DNA of 38,428 nt from Bacteroidales bacterium. GTDB lineage: Bacteria > Bacteroidota > Bacteroidia > Bacteroidales > JAAUTT01. The stretch lies in assembly GCA_025361285.1 (NCBI GenBank), contig JANYAP010000102.1, positions 1 to 38,428 of the forward strand, in the 5' to 3' direction. The notes beneath the pieces were generated by a model that did not search any database, was not told the DNA's origin, and was given only the letters and a program-made list of their open reading frames with translations. Position 1 is the stretch's first letter, and each line of letters begins with the position of its first letter. This document shows, one piece after another, positions 670 to 34,553 of the stretch. A program made the position numbers and the translations under genes.

Positions 670-998
670 AGGACATTAAATATCGACAGCGAGGTATAAT
701 AACCATTGTATTAATTGCAAGTTTATGAAATAAAATTAGTTACTTTGTTATAAACCTATGCATAATTACGAGATTTTTAAAAACCGACTCAGTTCAATTC
801 CGCGCTAATGAGCTATAAATTAGAGTGTTTGGGTAATAATAAATGTTCTTCGAACCTGTTTGGGACAATTATATAACCCATTATACTATAGCATGCTTAG
901 AGCGAAGGCAACCAAAAGTAGACAGGCAAAATGAAGTTTTTTAGATAATGCTACTAAACTGATTTTTATATTTTCCCACCCAAAGAACATATGTAAGA
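670..998 (+). repeat. Block A, copy 1: duplicated promoter-leader block without its gene
   Basis: This 329-bp stretch is nearly identical to 2724-3053, with scattered substitutions and a one-base indel. It contains a candidate promoter (TTG at 715-717, near-consensus TTACTTTG at 740-747) and the conserved GTTCTTCGAAC mini-hairpin. In copy 2 the block ends 90 bp before an MBOAT gene. Here it is joined directly to block B at about 998 and no gene follows on the + strand. Confidence 0.85.
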
Positions 999-1097
999 CT
1001 TTCGAATTTTTCATAATCAATAATTTTAATAGTGAATAACATTTATCGAAAGACTAAAACTGACAAATATATAATAAATATTGACGAACTGCATAAT
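998..1097 (-). repeat. Block B, copy 1: promoter and first codons of a BACON/beta-helix gene (relic)
   Basis: These 100 bp match 7348-7447 with two substitutions. On the minus strand the block holds a perfect -7 box (TATATTTG, 1071-1064) and an ATG at 1014 followed by codons for MKNSKV, the same first residues as the intact lipoprotein starting at 7364. After six codons the homology stops and the sequence turns into block A, so only the 5' stub of a gene is left. Confidence 0.85.
1012..1014 (-). pseudogene. Start codon of the truncated MKNSKV gene relic
   Basis: This is the ATG of the 5' stub carried by block B copy 1. Reading leftward it encodes MKNSKV, then foreign residues from block A, and reaches a stop near 892. 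The signal peptide and lipobox of the intact homologue are missing, so no functional product is expected. Confidence 0.6.
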
Positions 1098-1116
1098 GAA
1101 TATAATACGCAACAAC

Positions 1117-1542
1117 CAGGGCAAACGCATTAAAATAAAAAGTTCTTAAAATCTCTTTTGTAACTTTTTGTCGTCACAAAAAGTCACCAAAAAAGACTTG
1201 ACGGGCTGAACTCGCGCCGCCTGCGGCTTCGCTCAGACAGCACCCCATCGAAGCGGTATTTATATTTTACGCTTCGCGGCACTTTGATTGATGTTTTGAC
1301 GAAAATTTAAAAAATTGCGCCCCGAAGGTTAAAAATAAATTCCTTATAAAACTGCGGGCTGTTTACTCACTATGTTCGTGAGACCGCTTCGCTAAGTTGA
1401 GCAAAGTCGAGGTACGAGACGGCGCGAGTTCCCGCAGTTCAGAATTTTTGGTTACTTTTTTTTCGACTGAAAAAAGTGACAATGAATTAATTATGAGGTG
1501 TATACAACTATAAAAGATAAATATTTTAATGCGTTTGCCCTG
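1117..1542. mobile_element. MITE-like element with 21-bp perfect terminal inverted repeats
   Basis: Bases 1117-1137 (starting CAGGGCAAACGC) are the exact reverse complement of 1522-1542 (ending GCGTTTGCCCTG). Inside is a second, imperfect inverted pair: AAAAGTCACCAAAAAAG...GAACTCGCGCCG near 1177-1219 and its complement near 1420-1470. The core is much more GC-rich than the surroundings. No coding frame of useful length is present, so this would be a non-autonomous element. I saw no clear target-site duplication. The CACAAAAAGT...GAACTCGC motif is a type I associate with dispersed Bacteroidota intergenic repeats. Confidence 0.65.
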
Positions 1543-1962
1543 CGTTTTGAATAACTAAACTTTTAAAATCATAAACAAGTGTTACCTCTGGTACCCACCA
1601 ATTTCCTAATCGCTCAATTTAGGTAAGTCTCACAAAACGGTCATTTTGAAAGACTGAAAAAAGAAATAAGGGAAATCCTCCCAGTCTACTCGACCTTCTG
1701 AAAACAATAATGTATTACAATAGTTATAAACTTGAGTAAATCTCAACGATTTATTAAAATATTAAATACCATCCCATTTATTTACTCGTTTACTTTAGAA
1801 TGTAAGAGAGAGAAAGAGAAAATTTGGTTCAATAAATAACTACTTATTGAACCAAATCTCATTGCGGTGAATTATATACTTTCTTTATAAAATTACCCCA
1901 AAAATAATTCCTTTAGGGGGTGTCGGCAATATTTACAAAATATACCTCAAATCATCTTTTGG
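1543..1962. other. Intergenic stretch without recognised features
   Basis: Between the inverted-repeat element and the DUF1566 gene I see no coding frame, RNA gene or strong repeat. A weak hairpin (GGTTCAATAAATAACTAC / TTATTGAACC, about 1826-1855) lies beyond the 3' end of the DUF1566 gene and may help end its transcript. A second AT-rich patch near 1880-1950 shows nothing clear. Confidence 0.5.
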
Positions 1963-2550
1963 TTAAAATGGTCGAATTGCTCTAACTCTGTAGGAATCAC
2001 CTTTTGTATAGGTGTCGGTATTCCCATTTGTGAAATGCTCAGCCCAAGCTAAATCGGTAGTACTATCAATATGTTTTTCTGTAGAACTCCAATAGCCGTC
2101 AGTAGTAAAGCCTCCTATAGCCAATTGATTTATGAAAAGTTTGCTTAATTCATCTTTGCTGGGCAAATACCAATCGCTATAACCACTTAAAACTAAATCG
2201 GAACAAATTTTTGCAGCATAATTTCCATTTCCCTGAGTACCAACTATAGTAATTGTATTTGCATTACCGGTACCTATTTTAACTTCATTTGCCCCAGTAT
2301 ATATTTCACTACCATTATTCCAAGTTGTACCTGTACTTTGATCGCTAGGTGCAGCAATTAAACCGTGTGTTAGATTTGCATCGTAAAGTGAATCGCCTGG
2401 TTGCAAAATATATGCAATTACCCCACCTTGGTAATTTTGACCTATTGCAAGTGGCACTGATGTCGAATCTTTCTTACAGCTATTAGTAAGAATTAATAAA
2501 GAACTAATTGATACAAATAGAAAGATTAAACTGCATTTTTTTGTTTTCAT
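1963..2550 (-). CDS. DUF1566-domain lipoprotein
   Basis: The protein has 195 residues. The N-terminus has a basic start (MKTKKC), a hydrophobic stretch and a lipobox ending LTNSC-KKD around residue 25, so the mature protein should be lipidated and membrane anchored. The remainder carries the DUF1566 (Lcl C-terminal) signature: NYQGGVIAYIL near residue 40, GYSDWYLPSKDEL near 124-136, GYWSSTE near 152, and a closing YRVRAIRPF. The fold is related to C-type-lectin/FGE-like modules of bacterial surface proteins, with no assigned enzymatic activity. A perfect -7 box (complement of CAAAATTA, 2597-2604) lies 47 bp upstream. It is transcribed alone and diverges from block A copy 2. Function unknown; a surface or adhesion role is inference. 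Confidence 0.85.
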   Translation of the reverse strand: MKTKKCSLIFLFVSISSLLILTNSCKKDSTSVPLAIGQNYQGGVIAYILQPGDSLYDANLTHGLIAAPSDQSTGTTWNNGSEIYTGANEVKIGTGNANTITIVGTQGNGNYAAKICSDLVLSGYSDWYLPSKDELSKLFINQLAIGGFTTDGYWSSTEKHIDSTTDLAWAEHFTNGNTDTYTKGDSYRVRAIRPF

Positions 2551-2596
2551 TTTTATAAATTTTAGGAATTGATAGATTAGATATGAATTAATGCTT

Positions 2597-2604
2597 CAAA
2601 ATTA
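2597..2604 (-). promoter_or_regulatory. Bacteroidota -7 box of the DUF1566 lipoprotein gene
   Basis: The minus strand reads TAATTTTG, an exact TAnnTTTG match, 47 bases before the ATG. No clear TTG -33 box was identified. Confidence 0.45.
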
Positions 2605-2723
2605 TAATAATTATTTTAGGAATCAGATTGTTTTGTTTAAATTCACAAGTCTTTTACAAAAAAAACTCCTGAATTCCCCTAAATTAACAATAATAATTGT
2701 AAGTCCTTTATTTACTTGAATTT

Positions 2724-3053
2724 AGGACATTAAATATCGACAGCGAGGTATAATAACCATTGTATTAATTGCAAGTTTATGAAATAAAATTAGTTACTTT
2801 GTTATAAACCTATGCATAATTTCGAGATTTTTAAAAACCAACTAAGTTCAATTTCGCGCTAATAAGCTCTAAATTAGAGTGTTTGGGTAATAACAAATGT
2901 TCTTCGAACCTGTTTGGGACAATTATATAACCCATTACACTATAGCAGGGCTTAGAGCGAAGGCAACCAAAAGTAGACAGGCAAAATGAAGTTTTTTAGA
3001 TAATGCTACTAAACTGATTTTTATACTTTCCCTCCCTAAGAACATATGTAAGA
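2724..3053 (+). repeat. Block A, copy 2: promoter-leader of the MBOAT gene
   Basis: This is the second copy of the 330-bp block also found at 670-998. It carries TTG at 2769-2771 and TTACTTTG at 2794-2801 (22-base spacing), which would start a transcript near 2808 and give an untranslated leader of about 330 nt before the MBOAT start. The leader contains GTTCTTCGAAC and CTCTAAATTAGAG mini-hairpins. I do not recognise a known riboswitch in it. Confidence 0.75.
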
Positions 3054-3142
3054 GACACAGGCTACAGCATACGGAACGAATCAACTATTGTTGTAAATAG
3101 GATATTTAAACATACTTTTAAATATTATAATTCCCAAAAAAT

Positions 3143-4573
3143 ATGCTCTTTAACTCGATTCAATTCGCAATATTCTTTATTGTAGTTACGTGTTTATATT
3201 TCATATTACATCACAAATATCGTTGGTTCTTATTACTAGCAAGCAGCTGCTATTTCTATATGGCGTTTGTGCCTATATACATTCTTATTCTTGGTTTTAC
3301 TATTATAATTGATTATTATGCTGGCATATACATAGAGAAATCTGAAGGTAAAAGACGAAAATTATTTCTAATTGCAAGTTTATTAGCGAATATAGGTGTA
3401 TTAGCAGCGTTTAAATATTATAATTTTTTAAACGAAAATCTTTCTATATTTTTAAATGGTCTAAATTATAAAAATCCAATTCCATATATATCAATTCTTC
3501 TGCCTATTGGTCTTTCCTTTCATACATTTCAAGCAATGAGCTATACTATTGAAGTATATAGAGGGAATCAAAAAGCAGAACGACATTTTGGTATCTATGC
3601 ACTTTATGTGATGTTTTATCCACAGCTTGTTGCTGGACCTATTGAACGACCTCAAAATTTAATACATCAGTTCCATGAAAGGCAATATTTTAATTACTTT
3701 AGAGTTGTCGAAGGATTAAAACTAATACTTTGGGGAATATTTAAAAAGCTTGTAATTGCCGACAGATTAGCGATATACGTTAATGCTGTATATAATAATC
3801 ATAGCCATCATAATGGTCCAACACTTTTATTGGCTTCAATTTTCTTTGCTATTCAAATATATTGCGATTTTTCTGCCTATTCGGAGATTGCAATTGGATC
3901 CGCAAGAGTGATGGGATTCGAACTAATGACAAATTTTAAGAGACCTTACCTTTCAAGTAGTATTGCAGAGTTCTGGAAACGATGGCACATATCGCTGTCA
4001 ACTTGGTTCAAAGATTATTTATACATTTCTCTTGGAGGAAATAGAGTTTCAATACCGCGATGGTATTTGAATTTATTTCTAGTTTTCATCATAAGTGGAC
4101 TCTGGCATGGCGCAAACTGGACATTTATTATATGGGGAGCCTTAAATGGATTTTATCTGGTATTTGCAATTGTAACTTTAAACCTTAGAAATAAACTGTC
4201 TCAACTCATTGGTTTCAATAGAATTCCAAAAATTAACCATATATTTCAATTATTAATGACGTTTACTTTAACGTCATTCGCATTTATATTCTTTCGAGCA
4301 AATAACGTAAGCGACGCTTATTCGATTATTAGTAAAATTGCAAAATGTAGTGGCACAATATATTACGACAATCCGTCAACAATGATTTATTCGTTTTTTG
4401 GAATATTGCTACTTTTTTTCGTTGAAGGCAAGCAAGAATTTTACGGTAGCAGCATTTCCTTTCTTCATAATAAACACTGGATTGTTCGCAATTTAACGTA
4501 TGTAATGTTGATAGTTACAATCTTCCTAATTGGCGTTTTTGACGGAGGACAATTTATATATTTTCAATTTTAA
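3143..4573 (+). CDS. MBOAT family O-acyltransferase (AlgI/DltB-like)
   Basis: This 476-residue polytopic membrane protein moves acyl (usually acetyl) groups across the inner membrane for modification of an extracellular polysaccharide. Family hallmarks are in order: LLPIGLSFHTFQAMSYTIEVYRG (119-141), PQLVAGPIERP (160-170), CDFSAYSEIAIG (241-252), FWKRWHISLSTWFKDYLY (277-294) with H282, and SGLWHGANWTF (318-328) with the expected catalytic H322. Length is typical for AlgI relatives. It starts after the long block A leader and is followed 11 bases later by an SGNH-hydrolase-like gene, the usual two-gene acylation arrangement (compare AlgI with AlgJ/AlgX or DltB with DltD). No complete glycan biosynthesis cluster is next to it, so the acceptor glycan is unknown. 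Confidence 0.93.
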   Translation: MLFNSIQFAIFFIVVTCLYFILHHKYRWFLLLASSCYFYMAFVPIYILILGFTIIIDYYAGIYIEKSEGKRRKLFLIASLLANIGVLAAFKYYNFLNENLSIFLNGLNYKNPIPYISILLPIGLSFHTFQAMSYTIEVYRGNQKAERHFGIYALYVMFYPQLVAGPIERPQNLIHQFHERQYFNYFRVVEGLKLILWGIFKKLVIADRLAIYVNAVYNNHSHHNGPTLLLASIFFAIQIYCDFSAYSEIAIGSARVMGFELMTNFKRPYLSSSIAEFWKRWHISLSTWFKDYLYISLGGNRVSIPRWYLNLFLVFIISGLWHGANWTFIIWGALNGFYLVFAIVTLNLRNKLSQLIGFNRIPKINHIFQLLMTFTLTSFAFIFFRANNVSDAYSIISKIAKCSGTIYYDNPSTMIYSFFGILLLFFVEGKQEFYGSSISFLHNKHWIVRNLTYVMLIVTIFLIGVFDGGQFIYFQF

Positions 4574-4584
4574 AAATTAGAGAT

Positions 4585-5538
4585 ATGTTCAAAAGCACAA
4601 TAAATACTATCGAAAAAAACGAATACAAATATTTTTTTTTTAAAGTATTTATATTTCTAGTTATGATTTTTTTGATTGATTTTGCAGTTGGAAAGGTTTT
4701 GAGTACTTTCTATTTTAAACAGAAATCGGGTACGCCCTATCGCACAAGTTTCTCAATTAATGAAACTAAAGCAGACCTAATTGTTGTTGGATCCTCCAGA
4801 GCTAATCACCATTACCACCCAGATGTTTTTGAAAAAGAATTAGCACTTTCTTTTTACAATATTGGACGCGATGGACAGCCTATTTTCTATCAATACGCAG
4901 TCCTAGTGAGTATATTAATAAGATATCAACCAAAAATTATTGTTTTGGATTTTATTGAGGAGGAGTTTGTATTTGATGAATCTGATTATGAGAGATTATC
5001 GTCGCTTCTACCTTATTATAAAAGCCATCCTGAAATTAGTTCGATAGTAGAATTAAAGAGTTCATTTGAGAAAATTAAATTTATTTCGAATATTTACCCT
5101 TATAACTCCTTGCTATTTACTATTGCTATTGGTAACACAAATTTAAACGCAGGCCGACGAAACAATAATGACATCAAAGGTTATGTACCCCTCAAAAACA
5201 AATGGAACGAACCTATAAAAACTTATAATAATAATCAAAAACTTAAAATAGATCCTAACAAAATCAAAGTGTTCGAATTATTTATTCAAGATTGCTTAAA
5301 AGAAAAAGTTAAACTTTATGTCGTCTGCTCTCCTTACTATCGTAATTTCATATCAACGCCTTCTTCAATCAAATTAGGTAAATCAATTTCCCAAAAATAC
5401 AATATTGACTTTTATGATTTCTCACAAAAGTCAATATTTAAGAATAATAGTTCACTGTTTTCAGACCCGTCTCATTTAAATGATGATGGAGCCAGAATAT
5501 TTTCGGACAGTATTGCTAGAATAATAGGAAAAAACTAA
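4585..5538 (+). CDS. SGNH-hydrolase-like acyltransferase partner of the MBOAT protein
   Basis: The protein has 317 residues. One membrane segment lies near residues 18-37 and the rest should face outward. The nucleophile region reads DLIVVGSSRANHH (S70/S71) and the C-terminal catalytic block is SDPSHLNDDG with D294 and H297, giving the SGNH/GDSL-type Ser-Asp-His set. In MBOAT-linked systems such proteins complete the acyl transfer from the membrane protein to the glycan, as AlgJ/AlgX or DltD do. The 11-base gap to the MBOAT gene supports co-transcription. The stop codon lies only 5 bases from the stop of the convergent beta-helix gene. Overall similarity to named families is weak, so the role rests on the motif and the neighbour. 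Confidence 0.8.
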   Translation: MFKSTINTIEKNEYKYFFFKVFIFLVMIFLIDFAVGKVLSTFYFKQKSGTPYRTSFSINETKADLIVVGSSRANHHYHPDVFEKELALSFYNIGRDGQPIFYQYAVLVSILIRYQPKIIVLDFIEEEFVFDESDYERLSSLLPYYKSHPEISSIVELKSSFEKIKFISNIYPYNSLLFTIAIGNTNLNAGRRNNNDIKGYVPLKNKWNEPIKTYNNNQKLKIDPNKIKVFELFIQDCLKEKVKLYVVCSPYYRNFISTPSSIKLGKSISQKYNIDFYDFSQKSIFKNNSSLFSDPSHLNDDGARIFSDSIARIIGKN

Positions 5539-5543
5539 TAAAA

Positions 5544-7364
5544 CTATTTAACGTATGCCCCATTTTGCCAATTCGAAACTTGAACCTTAGAAATTATATT
5601 ATTCCTATTCCATACATTTGAAACATCAATACCTGTGATATAATTTGTTCCTAAATTTACTGCACTTTGTGTTGTTTTTGAAGGTATTAAAGTTGCTGGA
5701 TCGAGTTCTGTGTTAAGTATCACAGAATGCTTATCGAAACCAAGTGCTTGCCACTGAGCAAAAGTGTAATAATGTTTAGTGCCGTCATTTACGAAAAATG
5801 CAATTTCTTGGTTGCTTCCTGATCTGTAGTAGACGTTATAATCGCATTGCAAACCTTCAAGTGAAGCAGCATCTTCAATTTGTATCATCAACCATTGCTT
5901 ACCAGTACTATAAAATATATTATTTTTAATTATTGTGCCTGTTGATCCTTTCCCACCTGTGGGATCCTTTAAAATTTCAATAAAGCTTGCATAACTTTTT
6001 ACCGAATTATCGGCATAAAATGTATTATTATATATTTTAGTATTCTGAATTCCTTTAACAATAACACCGTAATTAGTTGCATTTTTTATTAAATTGTAAG
6101 ATACAATACCAGCCGAATTATCATCTCCTTTTGCTTTTAAAACAATAGCATCAGGACAATTATCAAGAAAATTATACTTTACAATTCCTCCTCTGTTAAA
6201 TCCAAGAAATATAGCATGATTTTGCCCTAAGGTCATATCTCCTATACCGATTAGCTTGTTTCCAACAAATTCCGCGCCATCATAAAAGTTGTCGGAAACT
6301 CCTGAACCCTCAGATCCAACAGCCAATGAATGATTATTTACATTTTTAAACTGAAATACATTGTTGTAAAACTTTACTGTTTGTGCACTTTTGGCATTTG
6401 AAATTGTTATAAGGTCGGTTGCAGTATTATGATTAGCTTCGATATAATTACGCTCAAAGGTGACAGATTGATTGGCAAATTCAAACAATGGTTTGGTATA
6501 ACTACTTGGGGCAACAAATTTTTTATTAATTATTGTACCCCCAAAACCTAAAAATGGAGTTAGAGTGTAAACAGTTTCATTAATAATGGGTATAGGCGTA
6601 GGATCAGGTATTGGTGCTGGTGCTGCAGCTACCTGAAGCACATTTATTGAAGCGTTTTTAGCAACTCCTGTACCCGATATAATGATTGTACCTGTTCTTT
6701 GGATACCTGTATTTGCTTGCACCGTTACGGTTACATTAGCTTTACCAGTTCCTGTTAATGGGCTAACAGTTACCCAATTAGGGAAGCTTTCAATTTTCCA
6801 AGTGGTGTTAGAAGTTACAATAAAGTAATCCTTATCGCCCGCAATGGCCGAAAACGTTTTTAGCCAATCTACCGATAATGAACTTTGTATTGATGATCCG
6901 GCTAATTGAAGCGCGCTAATTGAAGCATCTCTCAATACACCAGTTCCCGAAATGGTAATCACATCGGTTCTTTGTGCACCAGTGTTTTCCTTAACTGTTA
7001 CGGTAATATGTGCATTTCCTGTACCACTTAATGGGCTTACTGTTACCCAACTCGGGTAACTTGCTATTTTCCAAGTAGTGTTCGATTGTAAAATGAAATA
7101 ATCGCTATCGCCAGCCTTAGCAGAAAAGGTTTTCAAGTAATCAACTGAAATAGATTCCGACTTTTCGGAAATTTTTAACGAATCGGTAGTTAAATATATT
7201 GTTGTTTTTGAAGTATCTGCGGATATAATAACCCTTTTATTTATAGTATCGCTTTTGGCAACCTGGTTACTCAATTGCGGATCAGGTAATAGCTCCTTCT
7301 GACAGCTCAACAGTGTAATAAGAACTATCAAACTCATTACAAAAATAACTTTCGAATTTTTCAT
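5544..7364 (-). CDS. Lipoprotein with two BACON domains and a right-handed beta-helix
   Basis: I chose the ATG at 7364 (MKNSKVIF). The longer frame from 7370 would need a TTG start. A hydrophobic segment ends in a lipobox LITLLSC-QKE near residue 22. Two tandem BACON domains follow, at about 72-160 and 165-250, each with the pattern TTWKI...PSWVTVSPLSGTG...TVTV..NTG.QR. A proline linker (APIPDPTPIPI) leads to a beta-helix with rungs such as YNNTFYADN and IIKNNIFYSTG. BACON domains are common in Bacteroidota glycan-binding or glycan-processing surface proteins. The beta-helix resembles that of polysaccharide lyases, but catalytic residues are not evident. It converges on the MBOAT/SGNH pair, so a role on the same surface polysaccharide is plausible but inferred. 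Its 5' end is duplicated at 998-1097. Confidence 0.85.
   Translation of the reverse strand: MKNSKVIFVMSLIVLITLLSCQKELLPDPQLSNQVAKSDTINKRVIISADTSKTTIYLTTDSLKISEKSESISVDYLKTFSAKAGDSDYFILQSNTTWKIASYPSWVTVSPLSGTGNAHITVTVKENTGAQRTDVITISGTGVLRDASISALQLAGSSIQSSLSVDWLKTFSAIAGDKDYFIVTSNTTWKIESFPNWVTVSPLTGTGKANVTVTVQANTGIQRTGTIIISGTGVAKNASINVLQVAAAPAPIPDPTPIPIINETVYTLTPFLGFGGTIINKKFVAPSSYTKPLFEFANQSVTFERNYIEANHNTATDLITISNAKSAQTVKFYNNVFQFKNVNNHSLAVGSEGSGVSDNFYDGAEFVGNKLIGIGDMTLGQNHAIFLGFNRGGIVKYNFLDNCPDAIVLKAKGDDNSAGIVSYNLIKNATNYGVIVKGIQNTKIYNNTFYADNSVKSYASFIEILKDPTGGKGSTGTIIKNNIFYSTGKQWLMIQIEDAASLEGLQCDYNVYYRSGSNQEIAFFVNDGTKHYYTFAQWQALGFDKHSVILNTELDPATLIPSKTTQSAVNLGTNYITGIDVSNVWNRNNIISKVQVSNWQNGAYVK
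6600..7160 (-). repeat. Internal tandem duplication encoding two BACON domains
   Basis: Two units of roughly 275 bp encode near-parallel protein stretches. STTWKIASYPSWVTVSPLSG in the first matches NTTWKIESFPNWVTVSPLTG in the second, and TISGTGVLRDASI matches IISGTGVAKNASI. This indicates in-gene domain duplication. Confidence 0.7.
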
Positions 7365-7447
7365 AATCAATAATTTTAATAGTGAATAACATTCATCGAA
7401 AGACTAAAGCTGACAAATATATAATAAATATTGACGAACTGCATAAT
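7348..7447 (-). repeat. Block B, copy 2: promoter and start of the BACON lipoprotein gene
   Basis: This 100-bp block matches 998-1097 at 98 positions. It includes the first six codons of the lipoprotein and a perfect -7 box, TATATTTG on the minus strand (7421-7414), 50 bp before the ATG. Homology between the copies ends at GCATAAT, apart from a short GAATAT match displaced by 9 bases. Confidence 0.85.
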
Positions 7448-11566: not shown

Positions 11567-14500
11567 TTACTGGTTTGGCTTACGATATAGCGGACCTGTT
11601 GTAGGGGTAGGGGTAACTGTAACTGTTGATGAGACTGCTGTTCCATTACAACCACCTGCCGAATAATTAACTGATACTGTTTTGCTTCCAGCGTTAAGCC
11701 ATTTAAGAGTAACTGTATAATCGGAGGTAGTAATACCGCCCGATGTTATGGAGTAATCGACGCTTAGCGTGCCCGGAACCACCCAAACATAGTTAGTTTT
11801 AGATTGTTGTGTTGAGTAAGTAACATCGGTTGATGTACATAAGTTAGAAATTGGCGAAGCTGTAAAACTAGGCGACGTATTGACAGAACTAACTGCTAAT
11901 GTACTACTTGGGCTTGCTCCGCAACTGTTATTTGCAATAACTACAATATTCCCGTTTTGCCCTGTAGTGCCCGAAGTAACTGTTATAGTATCTTTTAACG
12001 AGCCACTAGTTATATTCCACCCAACAGGCACAGTCCATGTATAATCAATTACATCGGTAGCACCCGAAACGTGGTAATTTGAACTTTGTGTAGGACAGGA
12101 AACTATATAGCCGGCAATTACACTCGGGGTTGAAGGCTTTGATGAGTGTACACGTAAAGTAGTAATTGCCGAATTTAAAGGTGAACATATATAAGCAGGA
12201 TGCGAAAGCTGTACACGGTACAAATATTTATCGTACGCAACTGTAACACCAGTAATGGTTAACGTATTTGTATTAACCGTGCTATATATGCCTGCGTTTG
12301 TTAAATTTGTCCAACTAGTTCCATTATTTGTACTTACCTGCCATATATAGGTAGCTGCACCTGTTGCGGTAACCGACAAACTAGTGTTCGAACCCGATAG
12401 TGAACATATATTTTTGTTAGTCGGTGGTTGTAAGGAAATTACGGGTCCTTTTTGGAGAAAATCGAAACCTCCACTTCCATCCAAGTTGGATGGTGTTGTG
12501 TAACCTCCAGCGCCTATAACCTTTCCTTTAGGTGTTACCGTTAAAGGTAATCCACCCAGTTTACCATCGAAATTAGTATCGGTAAACCCTGCTTCATTAA
12601 CGTCGTTACAGCCATCGGCATCGCTGTCGGAGTCAATGCGGTTAACAACACCATCGGTATCGGTATCGGCATTGGGCAAGGGTGTTCCGTTGGTAACTTC
12701 GATACCACCATGGCCCGAGTTTTTATTATCTAGAGCATCGGCCAATCCATCGCCATCGGTATCGGTTAAATTATCGTAAATTCCATCGTTTAGGGCATCA
12801 CTTCCACCAGCCTCAACGAGGTCGTAAATACCGTCGTTATCCGAATCTAAATCCAACCTATCGGGAATACCATCAGCATCCGAATCGCAATCGGCTCTGA
12901 AGGTACATGAAATATCGTCGAGTGCAAAATCGTTACCACCCGGATCGGTATTCAAATTTATGATTTCAAAAGTGGCAGAAGTAGCATTTCCCGAATTCCA
13001 TGTTGCTTGTACATGATCCCATGCACAAGTACTGGCAGTTGCATTAAACTGCGCCCCTATATTTGTGCCATTAATACGAAAAATTAATTGTGCTGGTGAG
13101 GTTGGATGTACAGAGGCAAGATTAAGGCTAAAAGTATAATCCTTAAACGATGTAATAGGTATAGAGCCAGAACTCCAAACACTTTTACCCGAAACGCTGC
13201 TAGCATTTACAACCATCATGTTCCCCGTGCCTGTTGTAGCATCGCCACAAGGTGAAAAGGCTGAATGCCAACTCAAAGGATTGGTGGTTACTGTATATAT
13301 TCCTTCAGGGTATCCATCACTTGACCGATAGACATAATCTGAAATAATGCCAGCTGCACCTGCATCGAAGTGGCTATTAGGAAACAGCTCCGTAAGAATG
13401 GCGTTGCAAGGTGCATTTTCAATATCATCAGGTATCCCATCGTTATCATCATCTAAATCGAAAGCGTCGGGCACTAAATCGCCATCCGCATCTACAATTA
13501 AAATAATAGTTTGAGGGCTTCCGGCAAAGGCCGTACCCGATTTTATACCCGACGAATAAGTTATATTGCTAGTAGTTAAAGCATTAACCGAAATGTTTTT
13601 GTTAATAGTAGCCGTAGAAGCGATATTGGCAGTTATCCATAAGTAGCCCAAAGATCCAGCATTTGTTACCTGCGATAATGCATTAAAGGTGTGTGCACCA
13701 GCAGCTAACGAAGTGGTAATATCGGAACCTATTTGGGTTGCTGACACTAAACTGTTAACTGTGTTATACCATAACTGAAATTTAAGCACATCGGTTGCGG
13801 CATAAGTACCACTAGTTGTGAAAGTTACCGAATTTAAAGTAACATTTGCCGATGTAACCGATGTTGAAAAAGTATAAATTGGTTGTTTAGTACTTGCTTG
13901 AAACAAATTGGCGGCTGCAATTGCTGGGTTAGATGATGATAGCGCAATGGCGGGTATAATAGTTAATGTTGAAGAATAACTATATTCACTACATGTAGGA
14001 GAAACACCACTGACCTTGCACCGATAAGTATATAAACTCTTTCCAGTAACATCGGAAATTACTAACGAGCTAGTTTTAGCCCCCGAATAAACACCTGTAT
14101 TTGTAAGTACGTTCCATCCAGAACCGCGATTTTCTTCCCAACTGAAACTAGGAGACGTAGCTGTTGTTGAAGTTATTAAAGTTGCCGAACTGCCTGCCGT
14201 ACAATTTACATTGGCAGGCCCTGTACTGCTAAAGGCGCAACTACCTGTTATATAGGTATTTATAAGTGTAAGAAGTGCAGCATCCGTTGGTAGTGTGGTA
14301 ATAACTGAACCAGGTGTAACAGATAAAGCGCTATAATCGGCATTTGGATTAACAGCATAAACTTGGTTTCCACCGTTTTGATTAACTATACCACTTGCAT
14401 TGCCCCCAATTACTAGGTTGCCTTGGTTTTGAAGCGTTGAGGTAACAGGAGAAACAAAATTGCCCACAACAATAACGTCGGCCTGATTTAGGTTGGCCGT

Positions 14501-14920
14501 TCCATTATTTGTTAAATTGCCTTTAACAACAAGAGTTTGCCCGCCACCACTTTTAAAGGCCAATGTGCCCCCATTATTAATTGTAAGGTTGTTTTCAACA
14601 ATATTGGTTATGTTCTTATCAACATTTATTGTTCCATTTATTACAACCGTTCGTGCGGCGGAATTTGCATCTACTGTAACTGTTACACTTGCGTTTATAA
14701 TAACATCGTCGGTTGAAGTTGGTATAGAAGCGCCACCCCATGTGGCGGTACTGCTCCAATTACCTGTAGTTGAAGCAGTGCGTGTAGCCGAATGTGCAAC
14801 AAAAACGATACTAAACAATAATAAGGTTACAACTAAAATTTCTTTTACAAAAAACTTAGTTTTTATAAAAGCGTTTTGTTCCCTTACGAGGCTAGATGCC
14901 AGATTTAAGAATATTTTCAT
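11567..14920 (-). CDS. Large secreted surface protein with Ig/PKD-like and thrombospondin type-3 repeats
   Basis: The protein has 1117 residues. A charged N-region of about 27 residues precedes a hydrophobic segment (ILVVTLLLFSIVFVAHSA, about 28-45), consistent with secretion. Residues 46-200 form repeated beta-strand rungs (NLTINNGGTLAF, VVKGNLTNNG). Ig-like segments follow around 230-330. Calcium-binding thrombospondin type-3 motifs occur near 480-505 and 675-790, for example DADGDLVPDAFDLDDDNDG and DSDADGIPDRLDLDSDNDG. The C-terminal third has Ig/PKD-type modules. The end, TPTTGPLYRKPNQ, has no recognisable type IX sorting domain or anchor, so the protein may be shortened at its 3' end. 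The stop codon lies 22 bases from a direct repeat. An adhesin or matrix role is inferred from the architecture only. Confidence 0.85.
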   Translation of the reverse strand: MKIFLNLASSLVREQNAFIKTKFFVKEILVVTLLLFSIVFVAHSATRTASTTGNWSSTATWGGASIPTSTDDVIINASVTVTVDANSAARTVVINGTINVDKNITNIVENNLTINNGGTLAFKSGGGQTLVVKGNLTNNGTANLNQADVIVVGNFVSPVTSTLQNQGNLVIGGNASGIVNQNGGNQVYAVNPNADYSALSVTPGSVITTLPTDAALLTLINTYITGSCAFSSTGPANVNCTAGSSATLITSTTATSPSFSWEENRGSGWNVLTNTGVYSGAKTSSLVISDVTGKSLYTYRCKVSGVSPTCSEYSYSSTLTIIPAIALSSSNPAIAAANLFQASTKQPIYTFSTSVTSANVTLNSVTFTTSGTYAATDVLKFQLWYNTVNSLVSATQIGSDITTSLAAGAHTFNALSQVTNAGSLGYLWITANIASTATINKNISVNALTTSNITYSSGIKSGTAFAGSPQTIILIVDADGDLVPDAFDLDDDNDGIPDDIENAPCNAILTELFPNSHFDAGAAGIISDYVYRSSDGYPEGIYTVTTNPLSWHSAFSPCGDATTGTGNMMVVNASSVSGKSVWSSGSIPITSFKDYTFSLNLASVHPTSPAQLIFRINGTNIGAQFNATASTCAWDHVQATWNSGNATSATFEIINLNTDPGGNDFALDDISCTFRADCDSDADGIPDRLDLDSDNDGIYDLVEAGGSDALNDGIYDNLTDTDGDGLADALDNKNSGHGGIEVTNGTPLPNADTDTDGVVNRIDSDSDADGCNDVNEAGFTDTNFDGKLGGLPLTVTPKGKVIGAGGYTTPSNLDGSGGFDFLQKGPVISLQPPTNKNICSLSGSNTSLSVTATGAATYIWQVSTNNGTSWTNLTNAGIYSTVNTNTLTITGVTVAYDKYLYRVQLSHPAYICSPLNSAITTLRVHSSKPSTPSVIAGYIVSCPTQSSNYHVSGATDVIDYTWTVPVGWNITSGSLKDTITVTSGTTGQNGNIVVIANNSCGASPSSTLAVSSVNTSPSFTASPISNLCTSTDVTYSTQQSKTNYVWVVPGTLSVDYSITSGGITTSDYTVTLKWLNAGSKTVSVNYSAGGCNGTAVSSTVTVTPTPTTGPLYRKPNQ

Positions 14921-33846: not shown

Positions 33847-34249
33847 TTATTCAAATTCAAAACCTACATTATTCTTAAGGAAAACTCTAAAACCTTTTGC
33901 AACTTCTATTGCTTCCTCTCGATCTTTATTTGATAAATTGAACTTTACATCGGGATACCGTATTTCAATACCAAAAGCATTTAGTTTCATAATGCGCTCA
34001 TAAAATGCTCGGTCAAGTGGTATCGCGTCATCAAGTGAGTCTAATAGATATCTTAAATCGTGGCTTCTTTTAAATGAAATTGAGTTTTTTTTCGAGTAAA
34101 CATTTAATATACTTTTCGCTGGCTTGTTGGCAATGAAATGCAAGTGTATCGGAATATTCGGGAATATGTAAATTGATGACAATAGCCGTGCCAAGATCAT
34201 GGTCGGCCTTTTCAATCCAATCCTTTAATCTTTCCTCGCTAGCGTTCAT
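33847..34249 (-). pseudogene. HEPN-domain gene with a frameshift in an A8 run
   Basis: From ATG 34249 the frame reads MNASEERLKDWIEKADHDLG, TAIVINLHIPEYSDTLAFHC, QQASEKYIKCLLEKK and stops soon after an A8 run (T8 at 34085-34092). With one A fewer the frame continues as NSISFKRSHDLRYLLDSLDD through AFYERIMKLNAFGIEIRYPD to VGFEFE and a stop at 33847. The whole is a typical HEPN protein (about 133 residues), a toxin or RNase-like partner of MNT nucleotidyltransferases. The start overlaps the MNT gene's stop by 11 bases, so translation was coupled. It may be a true pseudogene, a phase-variable gene or a product of slippage at the run. A base-call error in the homopolymer is also possible. Confidence 0.8.
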
Positions 34250-34553
34250 ACATTAATTGGGCCTCTTTTATGGCTGTATTTACAAATGAATAACATTTCA
34301 TTTCCCCCTTTTCAAATTCATCATTAGTATATACTACTATATCAACAGGTAATTTCGAACCTATCAGTAACCTTTGAATCTCAATACTTCTTTTATACTT
34401 TGGTTCTAAAGTTTCTTTAATAACCAATAAATCAATATCACTGTCTTCATCTGCTAGCCCTGTTGCGTAGGAACCAAATAGAAACTTTTTATTGGGATTA
34501 ATATTCGAAGCAATCAGAAATACTATATTTGAAATTGTGCTTTTATCAATCAT
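34239..34553 (-). CDS. MNT-type nucleotidyltransferase (toxin-antitoxin module partner)
   Basis: The protein has 104 residues. The minimal nucleotidyltransferase motif is complete: KKFLFGSYATGLADEDSDID (about 21-40), with GSYA followed at the right spacing by DSDIDLLV (metal-binding D38 and D40), and a third acidic residue in LPVDIVVY (about 73-80). MNT proteins of this type modify (AMPylate) and neutralise a HEPN partner encoded next to them. Here the HEPN gene follows with an 11-base overlap and is frameshifted. A near-consensus -7 box (complement of TAAAGGTA, 34576-34583) sits 22 bases before the start. The MNT gene itself appears intact. Confidence 0.87.
   Translation of the reverse strand: MIDKSTISNIVFLIASNINPNKKFLFGSYATGLADEDSDIDLLVIKETLEPKYKRSIEIQRLLIGSKLPVDIVVYTNDEFEKGEMKCYSFVNTAIKEAQLMYER

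Follow-up and report, generated by a model that had tools for sequence, protein, structure and literature searches.

With a probability that we put at roughly 85%, the fused pair of flanks at 670-1097 is a derived structure that arose in a one-off event, rather than a cassette that moves or switches. It lies in a stretch of 38,428 nucleotides (contig C18, here called the window) from the draft genome of a Bacteroidales bacterium, which comprises 3.2 Mb in 202 contigs. In one place of the window two blocks, A and B, stand at the two ends of a cassette coding for an MBOAT O-acyltransferase, an SGNH-type protein and a BACON/beta-helix lipoprotein; in the other they are joined directly (Table 1).

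The two blocks and their outer ends

The two copies of block A (670-998 and 2724-3053) differ by 12 mismatches and one 1-base indel, and those of block B (998-1097 and 7348-7447) by two positions. Compared with the whole genome, the second copies of A and B score E = 1.9e-152 and E = 5.4e-44, respectively, and at this level of similarity an origin of the repeats by chance is excluded. In the fused copy the blocks meet at a single common base, the A at 998, and the MBOAT gene, the SGNH gene and the lipoprotein gene except for six codons are absent. The close match of both blocks, the missing interior and the one-base junction had all been described in an earlier note on this DNA and were borne out.

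The same note had described a clean stop of homology at both outer ends. This holds to the left of A, where homology ends abruptly and the anchored extension scored 0; to the right of B the stop is probably not clean at 1097. There the fused copy lacks the nine bases TTCGATGAC, and past this gap its homology probably resumes for about 19 bases, GAATATAATACGCAACAAC against GAATATACCCAATAAC, to about 1116. The score of this extension was equalled in 2-4 of 500 shuffles, and it is taken as probable only, since part of the scored alignment enters a repeat-like element. The left end of that element (1118) begins where the homology of copy 1 ends, and beyond the element the flanks of copy 1 showed no significant homology to the sequence from 7448 onward. 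The element, with 39.6% G+C as against 32.9% around it, may be a miniature transposable element; similar ends or pieces were seen on contigs C139, C63, C111, C154 and C193, several of them near contig starts.

Block A was found in no more than these two copies in its own genome, both in the window. It was absent from the four congeners (genus and family), occurred nowhere else in the order sample of 295 genomes (own genome and congeners included) and had no match in plasmid, phage or viral contig collections. Six-frame reading of the block gave no conserved reading frame, the fold of block A together with the MBOAT leader was no better than that of shuffles (z -0.38), and a scan of the window against Rfam returned no match. 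Lying upstream of the MBOAT gene, block A may contain its promoter. A signal-peptide-like short frame, SKKLHFACLLLVAFALS, occurs on the minus strand of both copies (2950-3040 and 895-985). It was rejected as a gene, as its ends differ between the copies and no start-to-stop frame is kept in both, and is possibly the remnant of a lost gene.

Table 1. Features in the left part of the window, in order of position.
Feature	Position	Strand	Remarks
PL9-like (Pel9A-like) beta-helix gene, 3' end, cut by contig start	1..430	+	match to Labilibacter sediminis protein
Block A, copy 1 (fused, derived)	670..998		317/330 columns identical to 2724-3053
Block B, copy 1, orphaned: leader and first six codons of BACON/beta-helix gene	998..1097	-	98/100 identical to 7348-7447; without TTCGATGAC at outer end
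Repeat-like element, about 424 bases	1118..1541		20-base perfect terminal inverted repeats (AGGGCAAACGCATTAAAATA)
Lipoprotein with Lcl_C domain, between the two copies	1963..2550	-	PF07603, E 7.8e-14
Block A, copy 2, upstream of MBOAT gene	2724..3053		no conserved reading frame, no unusual fold
MBOAT O-acyltransferase, ends FIYFQF	3143..4573	+	PF03062, E 3e-24; DltB relatives in PDB; 66% paralogue on contig C175
SGNH-type partner protein (assigned by motif and neighbour)	4585..5538	+	GSS near N-terminus, DPSHLN near C-terminus; 37% to protein beside the C175 MBOAT
BACON/beta-helix lipoprotein, two BACON domains	5544..7364	-	PF13004, E 3.4e-19; 56% relative in congener G003
Block B, copy 2, native place: leader and six codons	7348..7447	-	homology to C50 leader through coding start and past outer end

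Descent of block B and the direction of change

Block B consists of the 5' leader of the BACON/beta-helix lipoprotein gene together with the first six of its codons; the start codon lies at 7364-7362 on the minus strand. A gene on contig C50 of the same genome codes for a protein whose first 260 residues are 78% identical to the BACON/beta-helix protein of the window, and its leader matches that of the full copy with 76% identity over 154 bases, spanning coding sequence, block B and the TTCGATGAC outside it. In the congener G003, weaker, recognisable B-type leaders precede homologues on contigs C380 and C53, in the latter before one of two neighbouring genes. Since related leaders thus precede both the paralogue on C50 and the homologues in G003, block B, as judged from these alignments, belongs by descent to the BACON/beta-helix gene family. 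The fused copy also gave short matches in genomes elsewhere in the order, most of them to the A+T-rich start of B; these were attributed to chance or to a general resemblance among leaders.

Outside B, the full copy and the C50 leader, which serves as outgroup, both read TTCGATGACGA, and the fused copy is without its first nine bases. Because these nine bases are common to the full copy and the C50 leader and are missing at 670-1097, the fused copy is, by this comparison, the derived, truncated state and not an ancestral empty site. Had it been ancestral, the cassette would have had to land exactly between A and a leader already headed by the six codons of the lipoprotein itself, and the agreement with C50 would require a gain of the same nine bases; this argues strongly against insertion. 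The proposal of the earlier note that the cassette had moved into an existing A-B junction is largely contradicted, B being the gene's own leader and the fused copy ending short, at the outer end of B, of its full-length counterpart and of the C50 paralogue.

Origin of the fused copy

We would give even odds to 670-1097 being a non-functional relic, left when the whole module was copied locally and about 4.3 kb of the interior was subsequently deleted. By this route, the 4.7 kb that begin with A, include the MBOAT, SGNH and beta-helix genes and end just past B would have been copied once to a nearby place, the formerly full-length second copy would then have lost its interior by illegitimate joining of A to B at the single shared base, and the copies would afterwards have drifted to 96-98% identity. 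The divergence of A and that of B are similar (12/329 and 2/100, Fisher p = 0.54), which is consistent with joint arrival; a duplicated module of which one copy lost its interior, as the earlier note had envisaged, fits both this similarity and the truncation of the fused copy. The full second copy is not seen directly, because a comparison of the copy 1 spacer with the cassette gave no significant match and no trace of the cassette interior. Furthermore, no relative carrying A, and hence no intact A-cassette-B intermediate, was found among the four congeners and in the order sample, which is weak evidence against a two-step route. The copies are also not in tandem, 1.6 kb with the lipoprotein gene (Lcl_C) and the repeat-like element lying between them, so that a dispersed copy or later changes are needed. 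Partial dispersed duplication with interior deletion is a common bacterial rearrangement, and the present case resembles it in the two flank copies, one of them without interior, and in the one-base junction; it differs in that no available relative has the intermediate.

A tentative alternative is template switching in a single step of repair or replication, in which about 330 bases would have been copied from A, followed by a jump to B for about 100-120 bases and by rejoining, so that no full second cassette would ever have existed. The lack of an interior remnant in copy 1, the similar divergence of A and B and the one shared junction base all agree with such an event, from which the non-tandem placement would also follow naturally. 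It requires, however, an insertion as well as two template jumps, no scar diagnostic of it was seen, and the literature found on templated insertions concerns eukaryotes; to our knowledge there is no specific precedent in this lineage. The evidence does not discriminate between these routes, and duplication followed by deletion is slightly preferred because large deletions are common in redundant bacterial DNA.

It is improbable that another strain's variant was joined into the contig during assembly. Such an error would be favoured by the draft state of the 202-contig genome, by the start of the contig inside a gene and by the repeat-like element nearby. The copies, however, differ by 2-4%, lie in unique and different flanks of one contig and are separated by a 9-base deletion, unlike one sequence assembled twice.

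Very unlikely is the reading in which the MBOAT-SGNH-beta-helix cassette moves in and out of an A-B site, with 670-1097 as the empty state. The occurrence of the two states 1.6 kb apart on the same contig would suit it, but B holds the cassette gene's own leader and start codons, homologous to paralogue leaders elsewhere, and the truncation relative to the C50 outgroup largely refutes it. Moreover, no terminal repeats or target duplications of the cassette were seen, Pfam scans of the main ORFs of the window detected no recombinase or transposase family, and A is absent from every other genome searched. The search of related genomes for A and B with different or no cargo yielded A only here, and diverged B-type leaders before paralogous genes. 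The new kind of exchangeable polysaccharide-modification cassette suggested in the earlier note is thus not supported, with A at no other locus searched and no recombinase family among the window ORFs scanned; within the available genomes, and the diverged B-type leaders excepted, A and B occur only here and with no sign of mobility, the situation that the same note had associated with a one-off duplication with deletion.

Hardly credible, finally, is a functional fused copy in which the orphan B promoter, facing a reversed A, would produce an antisense RNA against the stretch in front of the MBOAT gene and so couple the expression of the beta-helix and acylation genes: B does keep a TATATTTG box, which we take to be of the Bacteroidota -7 type, on the minus strand at 1071 and pointing into A, and the A copies are still 96% identical, but the box is not conserved in the C50 or G003 leaders, such boxes number 59 in the window, no clear -33 box is present, and A has neither an unusual fold (z as above) nor an Rfam match.

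The cassette genes and their neighbourhood

In the PDB, the MBOAT protein of the window matches DltB (E about 1e-23). In MBOAT-SGNH systems the acyl group is carried by a conserved hexapeptide at the C-terminus, in which one tyrosine is invariant (PMC12148441), and the C-terminus FIYFQF of the window protein includes a tyrosine, as expected from that description. The product of the adjacent gene, for which neither Pfam nor the PDB gave a match, is SGNH-like by motif and neighbour. A paralogous MBOAT gene with its own partner is found on contig C175 (identities in Table 1), and from its surroundings this pair reads as part of a polysaccharide-export locus, with a large chain-length-regulator-like gene on one side and ABC-transporter-like genes on the other. 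For the beta-helix protein, the genome scan yielded no more than two named relatives, both distant, and those from the order search were all marginal; the structure model of its beta-helix part was unusable (mean pLDDT 45). The MBOAT-SGNH pair resembles the O-acylation pairs PatA/PatB, AlgI/AlgJ-AlgX, WssH/WssI and DltB/DltD in its MBOAT Pfam match, its DltB relatives, the adjacent gene of putative SGNH type and the C-terminal tyrosine; in contrast to them, it adjoins a BACON/beta-helix lipoprotein and not a known polymer synthase.

A 529-aa protein of Labilibacter sediminis matches the protein at the window start (P0001) with its residues 279-424 and a C50 protein with its residues 22-223, 55 residues lying between the two matches; the C50 part is assigned to Pfam PF22842. 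Since both pieces match this one protein, positions 1-430 of the window and 8696-10065 of contig C50 (L007) probably represent opposite ends of a single BACON/PL9-like gene, with a contig break of some 165 bases between them, and C50 would then sit directly left of the window. C50 also carries a cytochrome bd-like pair and further genes that resemble those of carbohydrate enzymes. The locus of L. sediminis (L043) is similar in having a PL9-like gene adjacent to a related beta-helix gene, with a Wzc-like gene beside them; it differs in that it has no MBOAT/SGNH match, that its genes lie on one strand and that no BACON match is reported. Two further observations were made elsewhere on the minus strand of the window. 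At 33847-34553, a nucleotidyltransferase-domain protein (PF01909) adjoins a 122-aa ORF, an arrangement that looks like an MNT/HEPN-type toxin-antitoxin pair, and 11567-14920 encodes a protein of 1117 aa that has a PKD-like domain and matches a G8 domain below threshold.

The MBOAT, SGNH, BACON/beta-helix and PL9-like set is a normal kind of locus, which, going by its gene content, plausibly modifies or makes an exopolysaccharide in this lineage of Bacteroidota. The 430-base fused stretch, real but ordinary and of little significance alone, is most likely a scrap of the joined outer ends of this gene set and the remnant of one old, local rearrangement. Fused flanks beside a gene cassette are not in themselves proof of mobility, and it is the comparison with a paralogous leader that reveals which state is derived.
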